A DNA stretch of 64,000 nt from Tetracentron sinense (taxonomy: Eukaryota > Streptophyta > Magnoliopsida > Trochodendrales > Trochodendraceae): contig CM026568.1 in the NCBI GenBank assembly GCA_015143295.1, positions 18,482,607 through 18,546,606 on the forward strand, given 5' to 3'. Under the pieces are notes generated by a model that ran no database searches, was not told the origin of the DNA, and saw nothing but the letters and a program-made list of their open reading frames with translations. Both the position numbers and the translations under genes were made by a program. This document shows, in pieces, positions 12,054 through 52,810 of this stretch. The first letter of the stretch is position 1. Each line of letters begins with the position of its first letter.

Positions 12054-13020
12054 TGTTATAATCTGTATGCTAAAAGGCAGAGTTTACCGATCACCAATTC
12101 GTATGAAGCAGTAGACCCGTAGATAAGAATTCCAGAATCTGTATGTTTGAGAACAGCAACAAAAAATCTGTAGATCACCAGCAACTCGTCAGTAGAGAAG
12201 ATCGAGGCACGTGTTATGACACGCTGACCTTAAGGTGAAATCCGCCCCTACAGGTTCTTCTCAACCTGAGATGCTCGTAGGATAAATGCGGGCACCCCCA
12301 GGATACAACGATCTATTCCAGAGATAAGGGAGCACTCTCCTTTCTCTGATCACAGCGAACTCAACCGTAAAAGAAAATTCGGAAGATCACAAAAGAAAGC
12401 TTTTTGAGGAGAACTCTGAAATTCGTGTTTGTTGTTGTGTATTGTTTACAGAAACTAATACACTTATATAGAATTTCTAAAAACCAAAAGGAAATTCTTT
12501 TAGATCTGAAACCGAAATAGGAAATTAAATTCTTAATACCGTTTTTAATAGAGTGATTAAATATTTTATAACAGTAATAAAACGGTAACTTTTAGTAACC
12601 CAAAAGCCAAGGAGAAGTAAGATAAAAAACAAAAAATAAAAAACCATTCAAGACCCCACGCGCGCGGCCCAGCCCAGCCCGGCCCGGCCCGGCTCGGCCG
12701 GCCGCGCGTGTGTGTCTTTGATGTTTGCACACCGGCACGACCCGCAACGCGTCGCGCATGAAGGGTTTCCGGCCCGGCTCGCCAAATTCCCATTGAAACC
12801 ACTTTGGCCTCCCCTTGGGCCTGACACATGCGCGAGGGCCTAGCCCACTCCTTTATTATTACCCAAGTATGAAAGTGTTAGAGTTTATAAACTCTTTCAC
12901 AACTTTCTCTCTTTCCGATGTGAGACTAAAAACACAAGGCAAAAATTAAGTTTTACACTTTTTACACAACACACCCACAACACCAACAACACCAAAGAAC
13001 CCCAAACACAAAATACAACA
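12054..13020 (-). repeat. Copia-B 3' LTR
   Basis: 967 bp; contains the longer version of the GC-rich block (about 12661-12710) that is 25 bp shorter in the other LTR. Confidence 0.95.
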
Positions 13021-13602
13021 ATCCCCCACATAAAACATAATTTTGAATCATTTAAGAAAGCGGATAAAAAGAGATGCGAAGTTACTGTGATTAAGACAAG
13101 GTGTCTTTGGACTTGAACCTTGACTTAGTGTTAATATATTAAATCTACGAAGAGATTGGTGAACTGAGTCTTGAACCAAGCTCTTTGGTTCATAGATTAA
13201 TAATATATTACACGCACAATAACACAAAATAAAAAACATTTTACAGTTGAGTTCTAACGGTTGTGCACGTTATCGGCCATGTGCAAAATCCCAGTTTTGA
13301 TGAGCGCTCTAGAGAATCAGCCTCAATTCTCATAGGAAGCGGCCCCACTTCCACACTCATATAGGTACCTCTATCAAGAATGTCTTGTAACATAACATCC
13401 CATTGAAAATCAGCTATAGAAGGCATTAAGAGTCAAAGACTCATCCCCATCTCGTTACAATTAGCACTACTACACCATAGGGATGAGAGAGGAGAATTCT
13501 CCATATTAGTGCTCTCACACAATCACTCAACAACTTGTTTTTCCCTTTGAACCTAGTTCATGGGATCTCCAATCAAGTAGGTTGGGTTACTGTTGTAGGT
13601 GA

Positions 13603-16600
13603 TTATTTATCAATAGGCTTTAGCCCCATCCCCCTCGATGTACAGATTACTAGCTCTCTAGCTAGCCCTTTGGTCAACGGATCCGCCAAATTTTCTTTTG
13701 ACCTTACAAAATCAAGTGCAATAATTTCGTTATTTAGTAACTCTTTAACTGAATTATGCCTTCGACGAATATGTCGGGATTTCCCATTGTAGGATACATT
13801 CTTAGCTCTAGTTATAGCAGCTTGGCTATCACAATGTATTAGAATCGTAGGCATTGGTTTTCTCCAAAGTGGTATATCAACCAACAATGTTCTCAACCAT
13901 TCTGCTTCCTCACCAGCTTTATCCAAAGCTATAAATTCTGATTCCATAGTAGATCGGGCTATGCAGGTCTGTTTTGTAGACTTCCATGACACTGCACCTC
14001 CTCCAAGAGTGAATACATATCCACTCGTAGATTTAGATTCACCTGAAATCCAATTTGCATCACTGTATCCTTCTAATACAGCGGGATACCTTTTATAATT
14101 TAGACCATAATCTAATGTGTGTCTCAGATATCTCAATACTCTGATCAAAGCATCCCAATGAGTTTGACTTGGGTTACAAGTATATCTACTAAGTCTCCCT
14201 ACAGCATAAGCTATATCTGGTCTTGTACAGTTCATTATGTACATGAGACTACCTATCACCCTTGAGTATTCTAGTTGAGATACACCCTCTCCTGTATGTT
14301 TTTTCAATATACAATTATGATCAAAAGGTGTTTTAACAGGTTTACACTCATATTGCTCAAATTTCTTCAACACCTTTTCAATATAGTGAGACTGAGATAA
14401 AGTTATCCCTTCAAAACTTTTTAGAATTTTAATTCCAAGAATTACATCTGCTGTTCCTAAATCTTTCATGTCAAAATTCTTGTTTAAGAATTTCTTAGTG
14501 CTAATTATGATTTCTTTATTCGTTCCTATAATTAGCATATCATCTACATATAAACAGATGATTACACAATCTCTGCCAAAAGATTTAGAGTACAAACACT
14601 TGTCTGCTTCATTTATTTTAAAGTCATTTGATATTAACACATTATCAAATTTTTGGTGCCATTGTTTAGGTGCTTGTTTAAGACCATAAAGAGATTTTTT
14701 CAATCTACAAACTTTATGTTCTAGACCTTGAATTACAAACCCCTTAGGTTGATCCATGTAAATTTCTTCTTCAAGATCTCTATTTAGAAATGCAGTCTTA
14801 ACATCCATTTGATGTATTTCAAGGTTAAAAATACATGCAAGTGACATCAATACTCGAATTGAAGTAATTTTAGTTACTGGTGAGTAAGTATCAAAGAAAT
14901 CTATTCCTTCTTTTTGTCTAAAACCCTTAGCAACTAACCGGGCTTTAAATTTATCTATGGATCCATCAGTTTTTAGCTTTCTTTTAAATATCCATTTACA
15001 TCCAATTGTTTTACTTCCAGGAGGAAGATCTACTAATTCCCATGTTTTATTAGCCATAATGGAGTCCATTTCAGCATTAACAGCTTCTTTCCAATATGAT
15101 GCTTCATGAGAAGACATAGCCTCTCTAAAGGAATTAGGATCATTTTCTAATAAAAATGTAATAAAGTCAGGACCAAAGTTTATGTCCTTCCTTACTCTTT
15201 TACTTTTTCTGAGTTCTAATTCTTCTAAAGAATTATTAGAAATACCTACAGGTTCTATTGAATTTTCTAAAGGTACAGATTGATTTATTGTTGATGAACT
15301 AGTTGATAACAAAGGATCTCTACCTTTAGAGTTTTCCTTAAAAGGAAAACAGTTCTCAAAGAACTCTGCATCTCTAGACTCAATAATTGAGTTTGAATCT
15401 ACTCCATTATTTTCTGATTTAATTATTAGAAATCTGTAAGCACTACTATTTTGAGAATAGCCTAAAAATACACAGTCAACAGTTTTAGGACCTATTCTAG
15501 TTCTCTTTGGGGTAGGTAAAGCAACCTTTGCTAAACACCCCCACACTCTGAGATATTTAAAGGATGGACGCCTTTTATGCCATAACTCATAAGGAGTTTT
15601 ATCACAATTTTTATGAGGTATTTTATTTAAAATGTAACAAGCAGAGAGAATTGCTTCCCTGCACAAATTATAAGGTAAACCAGAACTAATAAGCATGGCA
15701 TTCATCATTTCTTTTAAAGTCCTATTTTTTCTTTCAGCTATTCCATTAGACTGAGGAGAATATGGAGCTGTAGTTTGGTGTATTATTCCATTGTTTTCAC
15801 AAAATTCAGAAAATAAGTGTGAATCATATTCACCACCCCTGTCGGATCTTAGAATTTTAACAGATTTTCCTATCTGTTTTTCTACTTCTAATTTCCATAT
15901 TTTAAATTTTTCTAGAGCTTCATCTTTACTTTTTAATAAATAAACATAACAAAATCTACTATAGTCATCAATGAATGTTATGAAATATTTTTTACCACCT
16001 CTAGTGACTGTAGATTTTAAATCACATAAGTCACTATGAATTAATCCTAAAGGTTCAGAATTTCTTTCTATAGATTTAAATGGTTTCTTAGAAAATTTAG
16101 ATTCTACACAAATTTCACATTTTTGTTCATGGGCGGTAGATATTTTAGGAATTAATCCTAATAGCATCAACTTGTTTATAGATTTAACATTTATATGTCC
16201 TAATCTATCATGCCACACATTAAGAGAGTCAATCAAATAAGCAGAAGAAGTAGATGTCTTATTCATTTTCTCAACGATTACATTCAGCTTAAAAAGACCT
16301 TCACTAGCATAACCCTTCCCAACAAAAATTCCATTTTTTGTAAGTACAAATTTATCAGCTTCAAACACCAACTTAAATCCCTTATTGCTCAAGAGAGAAC
16401 CAGAGACTAAATTTTTCCTTATATCTGGAACATGAAGGACTTCCTTCAGATTAAGGATTTTCCCAGAAGTGAATTTCAAGTTCACTGATCCTTTTCCTGC
16501 AATTGCTGAAGTTGAAGAATTACCCATAAAGATTTTTTCTTCATTTCCTACTATTTCATAGGAGGAAAAAGCATTCCTGTCACCACAGATATGCTTGGTG

Positions 16601-17529
16601 GCCCCTGTGTCCACCCACCAGTCCTTCATATTGTCCACAAAATTAACTTCAGATATTACTGCAGAAAAACTCTCCGTCTCTGCAACATTGGCTTGAGCAG
16701 ATCTTGGATTTTTTTTGTCAGGATGACCAAATTTTCGGAATCTACAGCTCCTTGCATGATGTCCCGGCTTCCCACAAATAAAACAATCCCCTGTTGTTTT
16801 CTTAAAAACCGGTTTTTGGAATTTGGTTTTCTCACTTCGCTTCTTGTGAAAATCAGATTTACCCTTTGCTTTATTATCATATTTTTTCTTTGACATCCCT
16901 TCAATTAAATTCGTCTTTGAATTTAATTCTGCAATTTTTTCTTTGTTCTCTAAAATTCTGTTGTTTTCCTCTATCCGGAGGCGAACAAAAAGGTCTTCGA
17001 GTGTCATCTCTTTCCTTTTATGTTTTAACAAATTTTTGAATTCCTTCCACGAGGGAGGCAATTTTTCTATCACTGCAGCTACTTGAAAACCATCACTAAT
17101 GGTCATACCTTCTTCCAGAATCTCATGTACAATGATCTGTAAATCATGTACTTGAGATATAACAGATTTATCATCCACCATTTTGTAGTCAAAGTACCTA
17201 CCAACTACAAATTTTTTAGTTCCTGCATCTTCTGTTATATACTTTTTCTCTAGCATGTCCCATAGATCTTTAGCAGTTTTCACCTTACAGTACACATCAT
17301 AAATAGGAGGAATTAAGCCATTAAGTATGTAATTCCTACACATGTAATCTGCATGATCCCATTTATCCTTAACCAGTGTTCTAGCAGGTTCTAATTCATT
17401 CTCATAAGATTTTGGATCAGTAATAACATATGCAACATTCAGGGTGTTAAGGTAGAACATCATCTTTTGTTGCCATCTTTTGAAATTGTTTCCATCAAAA
17501 GGAATTGGTTTTTCAGAGTTGGACATCAT
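13603..17529 (-). CDS. Copia-B gag-pol polyprotein, intact
   Basis: A 1308-residue polyprotein with no internal stop. Domains in order: Copia gag (1-240), CCHC zinc knuckle at 249-262 ([14 protein letters not shown]), aspartic protease with DTGA at 307-310, integrase HHCC finger (H440, H444, C471, C474), integrase catalytic triad D500, D563 and E599 (D-E spacing 35), a chromo-less linker, reverse transcriptase with YVDD at 994-997 and the upstream [11 protein letters not shown] aspartate at 909, then RNase H ([27 protein letters not shown]) to the end. Length and order are those of a full Copia polyprotein. The usual glycine after AFLN is arginine (NRDLEEE); its effect is unknown. The protein would assemble virus-like particles, copy the RNA and integrate the DNA. 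The start is the first ATG pair, 45 bp after the LTR. Confidence 0.95.
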
Positions 17530-17560
17530 GCTAGCGTACAGATAATTTGAATTGAAAAGT

Positions 17561-17572
17561 TTTCACCTTAAG
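17561..17572 (-). other. Copia-B primer-binding-site position, self-complementary to the LTR
   Basis: Two bases inside the 5' LTR edge the minus strand reads CTTAAGGTGAAA. Its exact reverse complement, TTTCACCTTAAG on the minus strand, lies in the LTR at 17750-17761 (and 12230-12241 in the other LTR). No tRNA 3'-end match starting with TGG is visible here. Confidence 0.6.
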
Positions 17573-17994
17573 ATTGTTATAATCTGTATGCTAAAAGGCA
17601 GAGTTTACCGATCACCAATTCGTATGAAGCAGTAGACCCGTAGATAAGAATTCCAGAATCTGTATGTTTGAGAACAGCAACAAAAAATCTGTAGATCACC
17701 AGCAACTCGTCAGTAGAGAAGATCGAGGCACGTGTTATGACACGCTGACCTTAAGGTGAAATCCGCCCCTACAGGTTCTTCTCAACCTGAGATGCTCGTA
17801 GGATAAATGCGGGCACCCCCAGGATACAACGATCTATTCCAGAGATAAGGGAGCACTCTCCTTTCTCTGATCACAGCGAACTCAACCGTAAAAGAAAATT
17901 CGGAAGATCACAAAAGAAAGCTTTTTGAGGAGAACTCTGAAATTCGTGTTTGTTGTTGTGTATTGTTTACAGAAACTAATACACTTATATAGAA

Positions 17995-18001
17995 TTTCTA
18001 A
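17995..18001 (-). promoter_or_regulatory. TATA box (TATATAA) in Copia-B 5' LTR
   Basis: TATATAA on the minus strand, about 420 bp before the LTR end. It is a plausible RNA polymerase II promoter for the genomic RNA. Confidence 0.5.
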
Positions 18002-18379
18002 AAACCAAAAGGAAATTCTTTTAGATCTGAAACCGAAATAGGAAATTAAATTCTTAATACCGTTTTTAATAGAGTGATTAAATATTTTATAACAGTAATA
18101 AAACGGTAACTTTTAGTAACCCAAAAGCCAAGGAGAAGTAAGATAAAAAACAAAAAATAAAAAACCATTCAAGACCCCACGCGCGCGGCCCAGCCGGCCG
18201 CGCGTGTGTGTCTTTGATGTTTGCGCACCGGCGCGACCCGCAACGCGTCGCGCATGAAGGGTTTCCGGCCCGGCTCGCCAAATTCCCATTGAAACCACTT
18301 TGGCCTCCCCTTGGGCCTCACACATGCGCGAGGGCCTAGCCCACTCCTTTATTATTACCCAAGTATGAAAGTGTTAGAG

Positions 18380-18421
18380 TTTATAAACTCTTTCACAACT
18401 TTCTCTCTTTCCGATGTGGGA
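18380..18421 (-). promoter_or_regulatory. USE-like motif plus TATA in Copia-B 5' LTR
   Basis: TCCCACATCG (18412-18421, minus strand) equals the core of the plant snRNA upstream sequence element. A TATAAA follows about 26 bp later. In the 3' LTR the first motif carries one substitution (TCTCACATCG). Confidence 0.4.
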
Positions 18422-18521
18422 CTAAAAACACAAGGCAAAAATTAAGTTTTACACTTTTTACACAACACACCCACAACACCAACAACACCAAAGAACCCCA
18501 AACACAAAATACAACACAATT

Positions 18522-38678: not shown

Positions 38679-38914
38679 TAAACAAACTAAACAACGGAGA
38701 TTTTGGATCTGCTCTGCTTATTGTATTATTTATAATCTCTTGTGAGTACAACAATATAACAGTAGGATACATCTTTCCATAAAATGATATAAATACAATG
38801 GTGTGATTGATATATATTAGGAATGATGTGTTGTGTGCCAACTAGAGAGAAATGAAAGGGAGTCTCATGAGATCTTGTTATTCTCTTGAGATCGTGCCTT
38901 ATGATCTTCCAATA
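38679..38914 (-). repeat. Copia-C 3' LTR
   Basis: 236 bp, bounded by GAGTC on the outside and a purine tract on the inside. Confidence 0.9.
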
Positions 38915-43342: not shown

Positions 43343-43618
43343 TAAACAAACTAAACAACGGAGATTTTGGATCTGCTCTGCTTAATGAGCAGTAGTGGTG
43401 CTTGTATTATTTATAATCTCTTGTGAGTACAACCATATAACAGTAGGATACATCTTTCCATAAAAGGATATAAATACAGTGGTATGAAGGATATAAATAC
43501 AGTGGTATGATTGATATATATTAGGAATGATGTGTTGTGTGCCAACTAGAGAGAAAGGAAAGGGAGTCTCATGAGATCTTGCTATTCTCTTGAGATCGTG
43601 CCTTATGATCTTCCAATA
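43343..43618 (-). repeat. Copia-C 5' LTR
   Basis: 276 bp. The direct repeat 'gatataaatacagtggtatga' occurs twice here and once in the other LTR. Confidence 0.9.
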
Positions 43619-44050: not shown

Positions 44051-45193
44051 GGGTTATTTGTGAAAAACCCTTATCTTTTCAGCTATTTGTAAATACCCCC
44101 TTGAGTTTTGTGCTTTTGTATTATAGTTCACTAACTTTTAAAACTTTTACAAATCCACCCTTCCATCAAAAAGTTAGTTAAAGGATGTTAACTTTTTTTA
44201 TGAAATGATCTTTTTATCCTTTTTTAATGGGTTGGATGGAATGCAAGCCTCTATATATAGGTTATCATGTGTCCCATTTATCCCCTTTTAACTAGGGTTA
44301 AGCTTAATCAACCTAAGGTTAATATTTAAAAAAAAATTAAAAATCAAGGTTAGATGGATTAACACTAAGGGTGAATGAATATGAACTATAGCTAGTGAGC
44401 GTCAAAAAAGACATGGCAGCTTGTAAAGTCCCCTTTAACTATGGTTAAGCTTAATTAGGTTAATATTTTTTTTTCTAAAAACCAAGGTTAGATGCATGAA
44501 CCCTAGGGGTGAATGAATCTTAACCACAATTAATGAATGTTTAAAGGAACACGTGGCAGCTTCTACAACCTCCTTTAACTATGGTTAAGCATAATCAACC
44601 TAAACTTAATATATATATTTTTTTTCTAAAAAAATTAAATGGATGAATCTTAGGGGTGAGTAAATCTTAACCACAATTAGTGAGTGTTAAAAGGGACATG
44701 TGGCAGCTTGTACAGCCTTCTTTAACTGTGGTTAAACATAATCAACCTAAACTTAATATATTTTTTTTCCTAAAAAAGTTACATTGATGAATCTTAGGGG
44801 TGAGTAAATCTTTACCACAATTAATGAGTGTTAAAAGGGACATGTGGCAGCTTGTACAACATCCTTTAACTGTGGTTAAACATAATCAACCTAAACTTAA
44901 TATTTTCTTTTAAAAAAAAGTTAAATGGATGAATCATAGGGGTGAGTCTTAACTCAGTTAGTGGGTTCCAAGCACTTCTCTTATGAAAAGGTTTTACAAA
45001 TCCCCTTAAAATAAAAATAAAAAAGGTTAAAAAGATCATTTCATGAAAAAATTAACATTCGTTAACTAACTTTTGGATTGAATGGTAGATTTGCAAAAGT
45101 TATAAAAATTAGTGGACTATAATACAAAATCACAAAACACAAGGAGTAATTAAAAATAGGTGGAAATATTGGGGTTCTTTTTACAAATAACCC
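44051..45193. mobile_element. Mutator-like non-autonomous element carrying a tandem array
   Basis: Terminal inverted repeats of about 190 bp: the left arm starts GGGTTATTTGTGAAAAACCC and runs to about 44235; the right arm (about 44985-45193) contains the same motifs inverted ('aaaaagatcatttcatgaaa', 'gttaactaacttttgg', 'ggactataatacaaaa'). The flanks show a 9-bp duplication with one mismatch (TTTATTAAA at 44042-44050, TTTACTAAA at 45194-45202). The body is a tandem array of about five units (44268-44985). No protein encoded. Confidence 0.85.
44268..44985. repeat. Tandem array of about five units of 140-147 bp
   Basis: Unit starts near 44268, 44411, 44550, 44697 and 44840, recognised by 'acatgtggcagcttgtac' followed by 'cctttaactgtggttaa'. 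Each unit is itself a weak palindrome: CTTTAACT..GGTTAAG at one end and CTTAACCACAATTA at the other. It belongs to the foldback MITE family seen at 30.09 and 51.1 kb. Confidence 0.85.
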
Positions 45194-48775: not shown

Positions 48776-50851
48776 CTTTAGCAACATTGTTCTACATGAG
48801 AGCAAAGAAACAAAAAATCACATGGAAAGTCTTTCAGTGCATGGCAGAAAAAAATAAAATGACAGATAAAGAAACCAGAAAACATTGAAGCCAGTTTTGT
48901 TTTTCTACATTAAAATCGGAACATACCAGCTTCACGCTTTTCATCCCTTTCTGTAGGCAAATTAGCCCAATGTTGTGTTTTGGTTTTACTCGAGCAGTAC
49001 TTTCTTGGGGAAAGAAATCAATAAAATCACAGTAGCAAATATGAATTGCATAGAATATAAACAATCAAGTAACATCATAACATTGATCATCGAATACCAA
49101 AACGCAACATAGCCATTTGTTTTTTGGCTGCCAACAAGCAAAGCAATCAGAGAACTTTGAAGACCATTGCGGTATGTCTCGACATCAAATTCAGAGCATA
49201 TAACCTCATCATTTTGCTTTAGTTTTGCCAAATCAATCAATTGTAAGGAAACAAAATGAAGAAAAAATGGATTGGCAATAGAGGGAAATTCAAAGAAAGC
49301 CTTTGGGCTACAATGGCATTATAGAACTGAATGTGTGACAATGGGCATTTGAGCTATCATTCATTTGCCCTCATTATCGAAGCTTCAACTACTATGACAC
49401 AAATTTTGCTACGCCTACAAGAGCAACAATCAGAGGAAAATCTGAAGATGATTTGCATTTCAATATCAAATTCTGAGAACATAAGATGGTCAACAATTTG
49501 CCTTGTTATTTGCTTGTCTAGCATTAACACAGACAACATAACAGCCTCCCACACATACACTATGCATGCATTCAAAAGATTAAAGATTAAATAATAAAGC
49601 ACTCAGAAAATGCATTAACGTGTTCATGTCTTCTGCTCATCAAATTCTAAGTTGTCATGTCATGCATATTTGATGACCCTTGGCACACAAAGCAATCAGA
49701 GAACTTTGAAGACATTACATTATGTGCTTCCACATAAATTTCAGATATGTTAGCTCATCACTTTGCTTTGCTGTCACAAAGACTACAGTAAGACAATGAT
49801 AAGAATTAATTAAAAAACTAAAATCTAAATCATGTGATAAAAGCATGCATGAATAATTTTTTTTTGATCGGAAAAGCATACATGAATAATAAAAAGACGT
49901 GCCACATATTTTCTTCTTTTTATCGGTTAAAGCCACATTTTCTTTGGTCATCAGTTCATGACCATTTTTCCCAAGTAAGTCGATCATAGGAATAAACCAT
50001 TTATGTTGAAAGTTCCGTAGTCATCCAAAATATTCCAGGAAACAGGTGTAGTTTTTTGGATATTCCAGCCATACAATACAAAGTATAATAATAAATAAGA
50101 GAAAATCACTGATCTGCCTTTAGAGGCAATCTGAAACTAAAGGGGCATAACCATAAATTCTTGTGCTTCTTTAAACATATATAATTCTAAGGTCTTCTAT
50201 ATCTCTTAACGAACACAGACTCGCATATGGCTACCCATAGGAATATATAATGAGTGAAGTGCCTATATCTCAATTCTTGCTTCTTGTTTCCCAAGAATTT
50301 TCTAGCCTTGCTTCTCATTTCTTGTTTTAGCTTCTCACATTGGTAGCTATTCTTTGAACACTCCGGGAATATAATACAAACTCAAAGTATAATACACGGA
50401 TATACGAAAATCACCAAATCAACTTATCTGGAAACTACTTGAATCTAAGGGTAACTTGAGATTGACAAATCAAGCCAGATTGCAATTTCACTAGACATCG
50501 AACTTCATCATATAACCTTTGTACATAGCAATCAGAGAACTTTGAAGACCATTGCATTATGTGCTTCCACATAAAGTTCAGAAATGTTAGCTCATCACTT
50601 TGCTTTGCTACCACAAAAGTAGTCTACAATAAGTCAAAGACATTAATTAATTACAACAATAAATCCTAAATCATTTGATAAAAGCATACATGAATAATAA
50701 AAAGTCGTGCCACATATTTTCTTCTTTTTATTGGTAAAAGCCACATTTTCTTTGGTCATCGGTTAAAAGACCATTTTTCCCAAGGAAGTAAATCATAGGA
50801 ATAGATCATTTATGTTGAAAGTTCCATAGTCATCCAAAATATCCAGGAAAC

Positions 50852-51683
50852 CAGTGTTGTCAAGGCATCGCCTAGGCGTTTTTGGGCCTGAACCGCCTAG
50901 GCGCCCCTCTAGGCGGGCGAAATTCACTATTTGTCGCCGAGGCGATGCCTAGGCATCTAGGCACTAGGCAATCGCCTAGGCGGTCCATACAGTTTTTTTT
51001 CTAAAAACCTATTTTAAACCCCTCTTTTCAACCCTCCTTTAAAATCCTATTTTAAAAATTCATTTAAAAATCTCTTTTAAACCATATTTTAAATGGGGTA
51101 GTGGTTAGCCCACCACGCATTTGACTATGTAATCAAATGTTGTGTCCACGTGTCCCTTTTAATACCCCTTTAACTATGGTTAAGCTTAAGAAAATTAAGG
51201 TTAATATATTTTGTTTACAAAAACTAAGGTTAGATTGCTTAACCTTAGGGGTGAATGAATCTTACCGTAACTGATGGGTGTTAAAAAGAGGGGCATGGAC
51301 CAATGAGGACCGCACATTCCTCTACAATGGAATTCAACGGCGTTAAGTTAAACATTTCTCATTTTAAATCCTATTTTAAAACCATCATTTAAACTCTTAA
51401 ACCCTATTTTAAAACCTTCAATCTAAAAACGCTATCTTAGATATAGGTGGTGCATTTAAACTTTAAAAGCAACATCCAAAGTGAACACTCAAAATCACCT
51501 TAAAAGTTAGAAAACTTCAAACTAATTATGTATCTATTATTTATAAAATGTGTATATATTAATATTATAAATAAATATATTTCATATATATAAATATAAT
51601 TTAATTATTTTTATCGCCTAGGCATCGCCTTGCCTAGCCAGGCCTAATCGCCTAGGCATCACCTAGACGCCTTGACTACACTG
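50852..51683. mobile_element. Non-autonomous hAT element with perfect 8-bp TSD
   Basis: Ends read CAGTGTTGTCAAGGCATCGC and, reverse-complemented, CAGTGTAGTCAAGGCGTCTA. Perfect 8-bp duplications CAGGAAAC lie at 50844-50851 and 51684-51691. The terminal 150 bp is dense in CGCCTAGGCG-type palindromes. Interior is AT-rich with repeated 'attttaaa' motifs, plus a nested MITE. No transposase. Confidence 0.92.
51095..51360. mobile_element. MITE nested in the hAT element
   Basis: Bounded by ATTTTAAAT on both sides (51086-51094 and 51361-51369), a possible 9-bp duplication, although similar words are common in the host element. The interior holds the foldback family motifs (CACGTGTCCCTTTTAAT, 'ctttaactatggttaag', 'cttaaccttaggggtgaatg'). 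Confidence 0.55.
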
Positions 51684-52810
51684 CAGGAAACATGAGTAAA
51701 TTTTTTGGATATTCCAACCATACAATACAAAGTATAATAAATAAATAAGAGAAAATCACTGATGCAGCCTTTAGAAACAATCTGAAAACTAAAGGGGTAT
51801 AACCATAAATTCTTGTGTTTTTTTAAACACGTCGATAATACCAAGGTCTTCTATATCTCTTAACAAAAGTAGACTCACAAACTTAAGGCACCTACTTCAC
51901 ATATATACACAAATATCATGTAAGACAAAATCTAACATATGGATCGGACTACCCATAGGAATATATAATGAGTGAAGTGCCTATATCTCAATTCTTGCTT
52001 CTTGTTTCCTAAGAATTTTTTAGCCTTGCTTCTCATTTCTCGTTTTCACTTCTCACTTTCATAACTATGCTTTGCACACTCCGGAAATATAATACAAAGT
52101 ATAAAGGACGGATATAGGAAATCACTGAGGCAGCTTTTCTGGAAACTATTTGAATCTAAGGGTAACTTGAGAATGACAAATCAAGACAGATTGTGATTTC
52201 ACTAGACATCAAGCTTCATCAGATGCCCTTCATACATAGCAATCAGAGAACTTTGAAGACCATCGCATTATGTGCTTCCACATAAGGTTCAGAAATGTTA
52301 GCTCATCACTTTGCTTTGCTACCACAAAAGTAGTCTACAATACATCAATGACATTACTTAATTACAACAATAAAACCTAAATCATGCCATAAGAGCATAC
52401 ATGAATAAATATCGTCAGGCCATGTATTTTCTTTGGTCATCAGATATTCACAACCATTTTCCCCAACTATGTCATGCATTCAATAGTCTATTGATTGTGT
52501 CTTTTCTTCAGTCATCAGATAAATTCCTGCCTTCACCATTTTCTTTAAGCACATTGATAATAGCAAGGACCTTTATGCACATTTCAAGCATGTGCATACT
52601 CACGCACAAATACAAAAGAATATAAAAGGAAAGCTTTAAGAGAATGAATGAACGTGTTCATGTCCTCTATCCATCAAAGTCAAATAGTGAGGTCACATAT
52701 TTGTTGATATGATACACAATGCAATCAGAGAACTTTGAAGACCATTATGTCATGTCCTTTCCACACAAAGTTCAGACATGTTAGCACATCATTTTGGGTT
52801 GCCATCAGAG

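Follow-up and report, generated by a model that had tools for sequence, protein, structure and literature searches.

Copia-B, a Ty1/copia retrotransposon of the plant Tetracentron sinense, carries just past its 5' LTR a 12-nt site that is complementary to a stretch within that LTR, and eight families of its lineage keep such a complementarity with different letters in each. The feature is real and conserved, and is best read as self-priming of an already published kind. The best explanation for the Copia-B lineage, and a highly probable one, is that of plant Ty1/copia elements that prime reverse transcription with their own RNA, the priming itself being deduced from sequence comparison. What is new here is the covariation between the site and the LTR, the 2-nt spacer that separates the site from the LTR end, and the conserved module that surrounds the primer.

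Structure of Copia-B and its putative primer-binding site

Copia-B lies within a 64,000-nt stretch of the host assembly (GCA_015143295.1, contig CM026568.1, positions 18,482,607 to 18,546,606), referred to here as the window, and its parts are listed in Table 1. The Pfam domains of its polyprotein follow one another as Retrotran_gag_2, Pol_BBD, gag_pre-integrs, rve, SH3_retrovirus and RVT_2. The integrase therefore precedes the RT, which is the order of Ty1/copia and not that of Ty3/gypsy elements such as Tf1/Sushi, where the integrase comes after the RT. Four substitutions and one 25-nt indel separate the two LTRs; a 25-nt GGGCC-rich stretch (window 12675-12699) is found only in the 3' LTR of Copia-B and not in the 5' LTR. 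Transcription would be expected to start about 30 nt downstream of the TATA-box-like sequence, which begins at 17991 rather than at 17995, where the preliminary description had placed it.

Table 1. Parts of Copia-B in the window, with the primer-binding sites of seven related families
Feature	Position	Strand	Details
Copia-B element	12054..18516	(-)	6463 bp; TSD AATTG at 18521-18517 and 12053-12049
5' LTR	17575..18516	(-)	942 bp; TG...CA; terminal letters ...TATAACA at 17575
3' LTR	12054..13020	(-)	967 bp; same primer sequence inside
Single ORF	13603..17529	(-)	1308 aa, no stop or frameshift; gag, Pol_BBD, gag-pre-integrase, integrase, RT domains
Polypurine tract	13023..13027	(-)	GGGGG, then AT, then 3' LTR
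TATA-box-like sequence	17984..17991	(-)	TATATAAG; 230 nt upstream of primer
GGGGC block	17765..17769	(-)	immediately 5' of primer
Self-primer (putative)	17750..17761	(-)	TTTCACCTTAAG; predicted 3' end (putative cleavage) between 17750 and 17749
Hairpin	17730..17745	(-)	GCGTGT-CATA-ACACGT; starts 4 nt past primer; then GCCTC (17729-17725)
Spacer	17573..17574	(-)	AT, 2 nt; separates LTR end from primer-binding site
Primer-binding site	17561..17572	(-)	CTTAAGGTGAAA
F2 site			CTTAAGACAGATTT
F3 site			CTTAAGACAATATT
F4 site			CTTAATCCGAT
F5 site			CTTGAAACCAATCT
F6 site			TTTAAGACAATTCGC
F7 site			CTTAAGGTGAAAAA
F8 site			CTTAAGAACAGAT

The sequence CTTAAGGTGAAA (17572-17561) is a perfect 12-nt complement of TTTCACCTTAAG (17761-17750) in the LTR, from which 175 nt extend to the LTR end. 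The preliminary description was right in reporting this complement, which the 3' LTR carries as well, and in reporting that no TGG-type tRNA site adjoins the 5' LTR: TGG is absent from the whole leader, from the LTR to the start codon at 17529, and the tRNA-iMet-type site TGGTATCAGAGC does not stand at the LTR end of Copia-B. Its placement of the site two bases inside the LTR requires correction, as the site begins 2 nt beyond the LTR end (17575). The published rule for recognizing self-primers of plant elements asks for 10 bp or more of complementarity between the 5' LTR and a site that begins 0-5 bp beyond it (PMC6317226); Copia-B falls within this range with 12 nt at an offset of 2. A 14-bp duplex with one G.U pair, which would adjoin the LTR end, was considered and dropped, the spacer bases being unpaired in other families.

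Runs of at least 12 beginning 0-5 nt after the LTR end were counted to gauge the level of chance. They occurred in 12 of 20000 dinucleotide-shuffled leaders, at 154 of 114754 window positions outside Copia-B (both strands), and at none of 4494 positions of the Copia-B internal region. The 12-nt match in Copia-B alone is unlikely by chance and not decisive, and it is the comparison of families that is decisive.

Conservation of the match among related loci

The LTR-leader junction of Copia-B served as the query against the host assembly (1.16 Gb) and yielded 530 candidates, 40 of which were scored and 30 retrieved, with the window copy itself at the head. Within this family, labelled F1, a loss of complementarity in other copies, which the preliminary description had named as a refutation of self-priming, was not seen: Watson-Crick runs of at least 11 were found in 28 of the 30 loci, the window copy included, and half of the loci (15/30) have runs of 14-15, exceeding the 12 of the window copy. 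The leader is altered by a point change in one exception (L016), and in the other (L030) one LTR base is changed such that a G.U pair remains. Leader positions 17574-17565 are invariant across the other 29 copies, and variation is concentrated at 17563-17557, near the end of the primer duplex, possibly as a footprint of primer copying.

Two further observations concern the copies of this family. A T occupies position 17560 in 22/29 and a C position 17559 in 22/29, and both bases lengthen the pairing. In addition, head-to-tail arrangements of F1 copies and of elements that are F7-like by score occur at L017/L018 (C19:35.62 Mb) and C1407:80946-91793, with intervals of about 5.54 and 5.15 kb, the pattern that tandem elements with shared LTRs would give.

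Further elements were found with gag fragments of two homologous proteins (150 of 7899 scored, 30 cut out); 7 more were fetched from other places of that search, and 10 more from the 150 of another listing. Family labels F1-F8 were assigned in this analysis from leader and LTR sequence only. The leader motif is present in 74 of the 77 fetched 5' ends, and Watson-Crick runs of 11-17 nt occur in 69 of the 77, where the leader was located by motif and, at the 41 loci with several candidates, the longest run was counted. The offset is 2 nt past the terminal CA in 68 of these 69 matching loci.

Eight loci depart from the rule. Five of them (L016, L030, L037, L040 and L078) have runs of 5-8, and for L037 and L040 no partner better than 10/14 was present in the fetched stretch. 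L055 pairs at 14/14 positions, and the terminal CA that the motif requires is mutated; when this locus is counted, the complement is found in 70/77. The leader of L064 is deleted, and L049 ends before the expected place of the partner. L078, an F2 copy with a rearranged LTR, lacks an LTR partner; it was considered as a contradiction of the self-priming model and set aside, as all six further copies of its subfamily pair at 14/14.

Covariation among eight families

The leaders of the other families share a common plan, in which the LTR end ...CA is followed by two bases and then by a family-specific site (Table 1). They differ from one another, as exemplified by CTTAATCCGAT, CTTGAAACCAATCT and TTTAAGACAATT, and each matches its own LTR; the sites of the representatives are exactly complementary to a partner 77-255 nt before the end of that LTR. 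In seven of the eight families the LTR end was compared with the 3' LTR and agreed to within 2 nt. It lies exactly at CA in F4, while two more bases (AT) match the 3' flank in F2, F3 and F5, and one further base (A) in F6 and F8; the fetched stretch of F7 did not reach the end for this comparison.

With one representative per family, the runs between leader and own LTR measure 14, 17, 14, 11, 14, 15, 14 and 13, versus a mean run of 6.6 between leaders and the LTRs of others (72 ordered pairs of nine representatives, including F6b). Among the 40320 possible assignments of the eight leaders to the eight LTRs, the true one alone reaches the observed sum of 112. The next best attains 108, so near because F1 and F7 are close, with a 12-nt cross-match. 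Across the eight representatives, standard pairs make up 95 of 96, and compensatory changes with at least two Watson-Crick pair types are seen at 9 of the 12 positions, although the choice of partners as the longest run biases both counts to standard pairs inside the run and makes run lengths the cleaner measure. The sequence comparison shows that selection holds the site and the LTR stretch complementary, and that the site starts 2 nt past the LTR. The self-priming interpretation of the preliminary description gains its support here, in that the two 12-mers covary between families. Self-priming of plant Copia elements has so far been a sequence-based prediction, for which covariation over eight families in one genome is strong independent evidence of a selected pairing. 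The covariation also points to the 3' end of the primer.

Elements of the tRNA-Met type from the same genome served as controls. They comprised Copia-A of the window and ten stretches, several being near-copies of one another, that precede Copia-A-like gag genes. The sequence TGGTATCAGAG, present in Copia-A and in all ten stretches, was taken as the leader and compared with the 299-350 nt before it, the LTR end having been verified for Copia-A only; the longest leader-LTR run was 4-7 in all 11. Copia-C of the window has a tRNA-type site, TGGTCTCAGAGC, and a run of 6. The LTRs of this element (window 43343-43618 and 38679-38914) begin with TATTGG and end with GTTTA, and thus have non-canonical TA...TA termini, with a target duplication GACTC on both sides. 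Approximately 650 nt upstream of Copia-C, window 44267-44905 consists of five diverged tandem copies of a 138-147-nt unit.

Sequence context of the putative primer

The surroundings of the primer are also conserved. GGGGC precedes it in 7/8 representatives, and F2 has GGGAC, which overlaps its longer match. The best downstream hairpin begins exactly 4 nt past the primer in all eight, and CCTC follows or overlaps the hairpin end in six of them. Hairpin energies are jointly below those of shuffled sequences (Fisher p 0.006, for families that are related to each other), and singly at p < 0.05 in two of the eight families, F6 and F8; the hairpin is absent from F6b. The evidence for this predicted hairpin is weak and may be taken as suggestive only.

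Primer and site are predicted to pair with a probability of at least 0.5 in 9/10 short folds (145-331 nt). In longer folds that begin 200 nt before the primer, this value is reached in 4/10, and it is 0.0 for Copia-B. A fold of the whole R-U5-leader region was rejected as support, its z being only -1.27 and the primer and primer-binding site of Copia-B unpaired in the long context. A TATA[AT]A box occurs upstream of the primer in five of eight families, the nearest 194-273 nt away, and no such box was found upstream of the primer in F2-F4. Words resembling a poly(A) signal lie downstream of the primer in 3/8 families; between the primer and the LTR end they provide no consistent signal over the families and were discarded.

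Proposed mechanism and alternatives

In the proposed mechanism, the LTR stretch of 11-17 nt, downstream of the TATA box where one is found, would pair in cis or in trans with the site 2 nt past the LTR. The RNA would be cut right after the primer stretch, at CTTAAG|G in most families, giving a 3'-OH; the enzyme responsible is likely the RNase H of the element's RT, to judge from the title of a Tf1 paper. Extension by the RT across the 2-nt spacer and U5 as far as the cut would generate a minus-strand strong-stop of about 177 nt with the 5' RNA piece attached. This product would transfer to the 3' LTR of the RNA, where the sequence recurs, a step that would require a poly(A) site located 3' of the primer. 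The integrase would then trim two extra bases off the cDNA end, as the spacer suggests. Since the polypurine tract is followed by AT before the LTR in Copia-B, and likewise in one F2 element, both cDNA ends could carry the same two bases.

A more detailed form of this proposal, for which the balance is even, holds that an internal LTR module is cut, consisting of GGGGC, a family-specific primer ending in AAG or AAA, the hairpin 4 nt further on, and CCTC. The primer would keep about 200 nt of 5' RNA, and the strong-stop would comprise only the U5 between the cut and the site. Primer and site would drift together while the module stays, by a mechanism unlike that of Tf1.

Other explanations of the match are less probable. 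Two AT-rich stretches could match by chance, and a single run of 12 nt does arise at rates from 12/20000 to 154/114754 trials; the retention of the match in 69/77 loci, with different letters in eight families, refutes this explanation and leaves it a negligible probability. Priming at the leader by a tRNA or half-tRNA is very unlikely. Half-tRNA primers are described for other plant Copia lineages (PMC6317226), but the leaders here are family-specific and track their own LTRs, and the covariation disfavours a tRNA. A good tRNA match, named in the preliminary description as evidence against self-priming, was not found among 29 tRNAs of the genome, yet these represent 11 isoacceptors, with tRNA-iMet and tRNA-Leu absent and no positive control; matches were of at most 5 nt for Copia-B and at most 8 nt for any family, the best being those 8 nt of the F2 leader with a tRNA-Lys. 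In plant tRNA-Leu(UAA), the anticodon loop would presumably match ATCTTAAG, right at the LTR end, and a search with a tRNA-Leu pattern returned no match.

The pairing might instead be selected for another role, such as RNA dimerisation, packaging or genome cyclisation, with CTTAAG joining two RNAs and another molecule as the primer. A palindromic CTTAAG core is indeed present in 5/8 family representatives, and fungal GalEa Copia elements that lack a primer-binding site are reported to keep a palindromic hairpin at that position (PMC5445492). The site, however, occupies the obligatory place of a primer-binding site, at an offset of 2 in 68/69 loci, where it replaces the tRNA site, and F4, F5 and F6 have other letters in the core, compensated in the LTR. 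The palindrome is therefore dispensable and the LTR match is not, and we regard a role of this kind as unlikely.

Relationship to known priming systems

Self-priming in plant Copia elements has a precedent in a published prediction, which removes the novelty that the preliminary description had attached to it. The TAR lineage of plant Ty1/copia, including Houba and Osr-1, was predicted to be self-primed by Neumann et al. 2019 (PMC6317226), with the primer set free when the 5' LTR portion of the transcript is cleaved; the same paper names Capy 2005 as the source of an earlier proposal concerning Houba and Osr-1. TAR elements resemble Copia-B in their Ty1/copia domain order, the lack of a tRNA site, and a 5' LTR complement 0-5 nt past the LTR. 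Their sizes are also near-equal: element and LTR lengths are 6437/968 for Houba and 6400/965 for Osr1 (PMC1940013, Table 1), and 6463/942-967 for Copia-B. No difference was found, and Copia-B is likely a member of TAR. Houba eccDNA with LTR-LTR junctions is reported (PMC5501947; rice data GSE90484), indicating that such elements can make cDNA. A literature search, conducted mostly without full texts, found no experimental or later work on plant self-priming beyond PMC6317226; in PMC6409974, PMC4659654 and PMC2206039, "self-priming" denotes a PCR or amplification method.

Over 471 aa, the RT-RH region of Copia-B shares 60% identity with a Lolium protein, versus 38% and 36% with the other two Copias of the window, and relatives occur in grasses and eudicots. 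The lineage is therefore old or has moved between plants.

Tf1/Sushi elements of the Ty3/gypsy type (Tf1 and Tj1; PMC4600332) and the plant Tcn1 clade (PMC6317226) use their own RNA, complementary to the primer-binding site, as primer, as is proposed for Copia-B. The Tf1/Sushi elements have the Gypsy domain order, in contrast to the Copia order of Copia-B. In Tf1 and Tj1 the primer is reported at the 5' end of the mRNA (PMC4600332), whereas in five families of the Copia-B lineage it is situated 194-273 nt past a TATA[AT]A box, and a cut within the RNA, detaching a long 5' piece, would therefore be needed. Half-tRNA primed plant Copia elements, namely Bianca, Osser, Bryco and part of Gymco-II (PMC6317226), are similarly Copias with a site that does not match the 3' end of a tRNA. 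Their sites match an internal tRNA region, unlike the site of the Copia-B lineage, which varies by family and tracks its own LTR. The fungal GalEa Copia elements, with their Conserved Hairpin Site, share with Copia-B the lack of a tRNA site and a palindrome at the primer-binding position, but a complement in U5 was never found for them according to the consulted part of that report (PMC5445492), compared with 70/77 loci here. If elements of the Copia-B lineage are self-primed, tRNA fragments would not control them, and cDNA assays primed from tRNA sites would overlook them.

Relatives were also sought outside the host. None was found in the search of viral contigs, and genome contigs of other species provided seven loci. 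In the closest of these (L095), the first 120 bases look coding, and the locus is therefore without a 5' end. This polyprotein relative, with 55% identity in its best segment, is on a low-coverage contig of a Robertmurraya kyonggiensis assembly and is probably contamination. Elsewhere in the window, five Rfam matches to the C/D-box snoRNA snoR160 fall within 3.7 kb (49142-52798, minus strand) and constitute a repeated snoRNA cluster.
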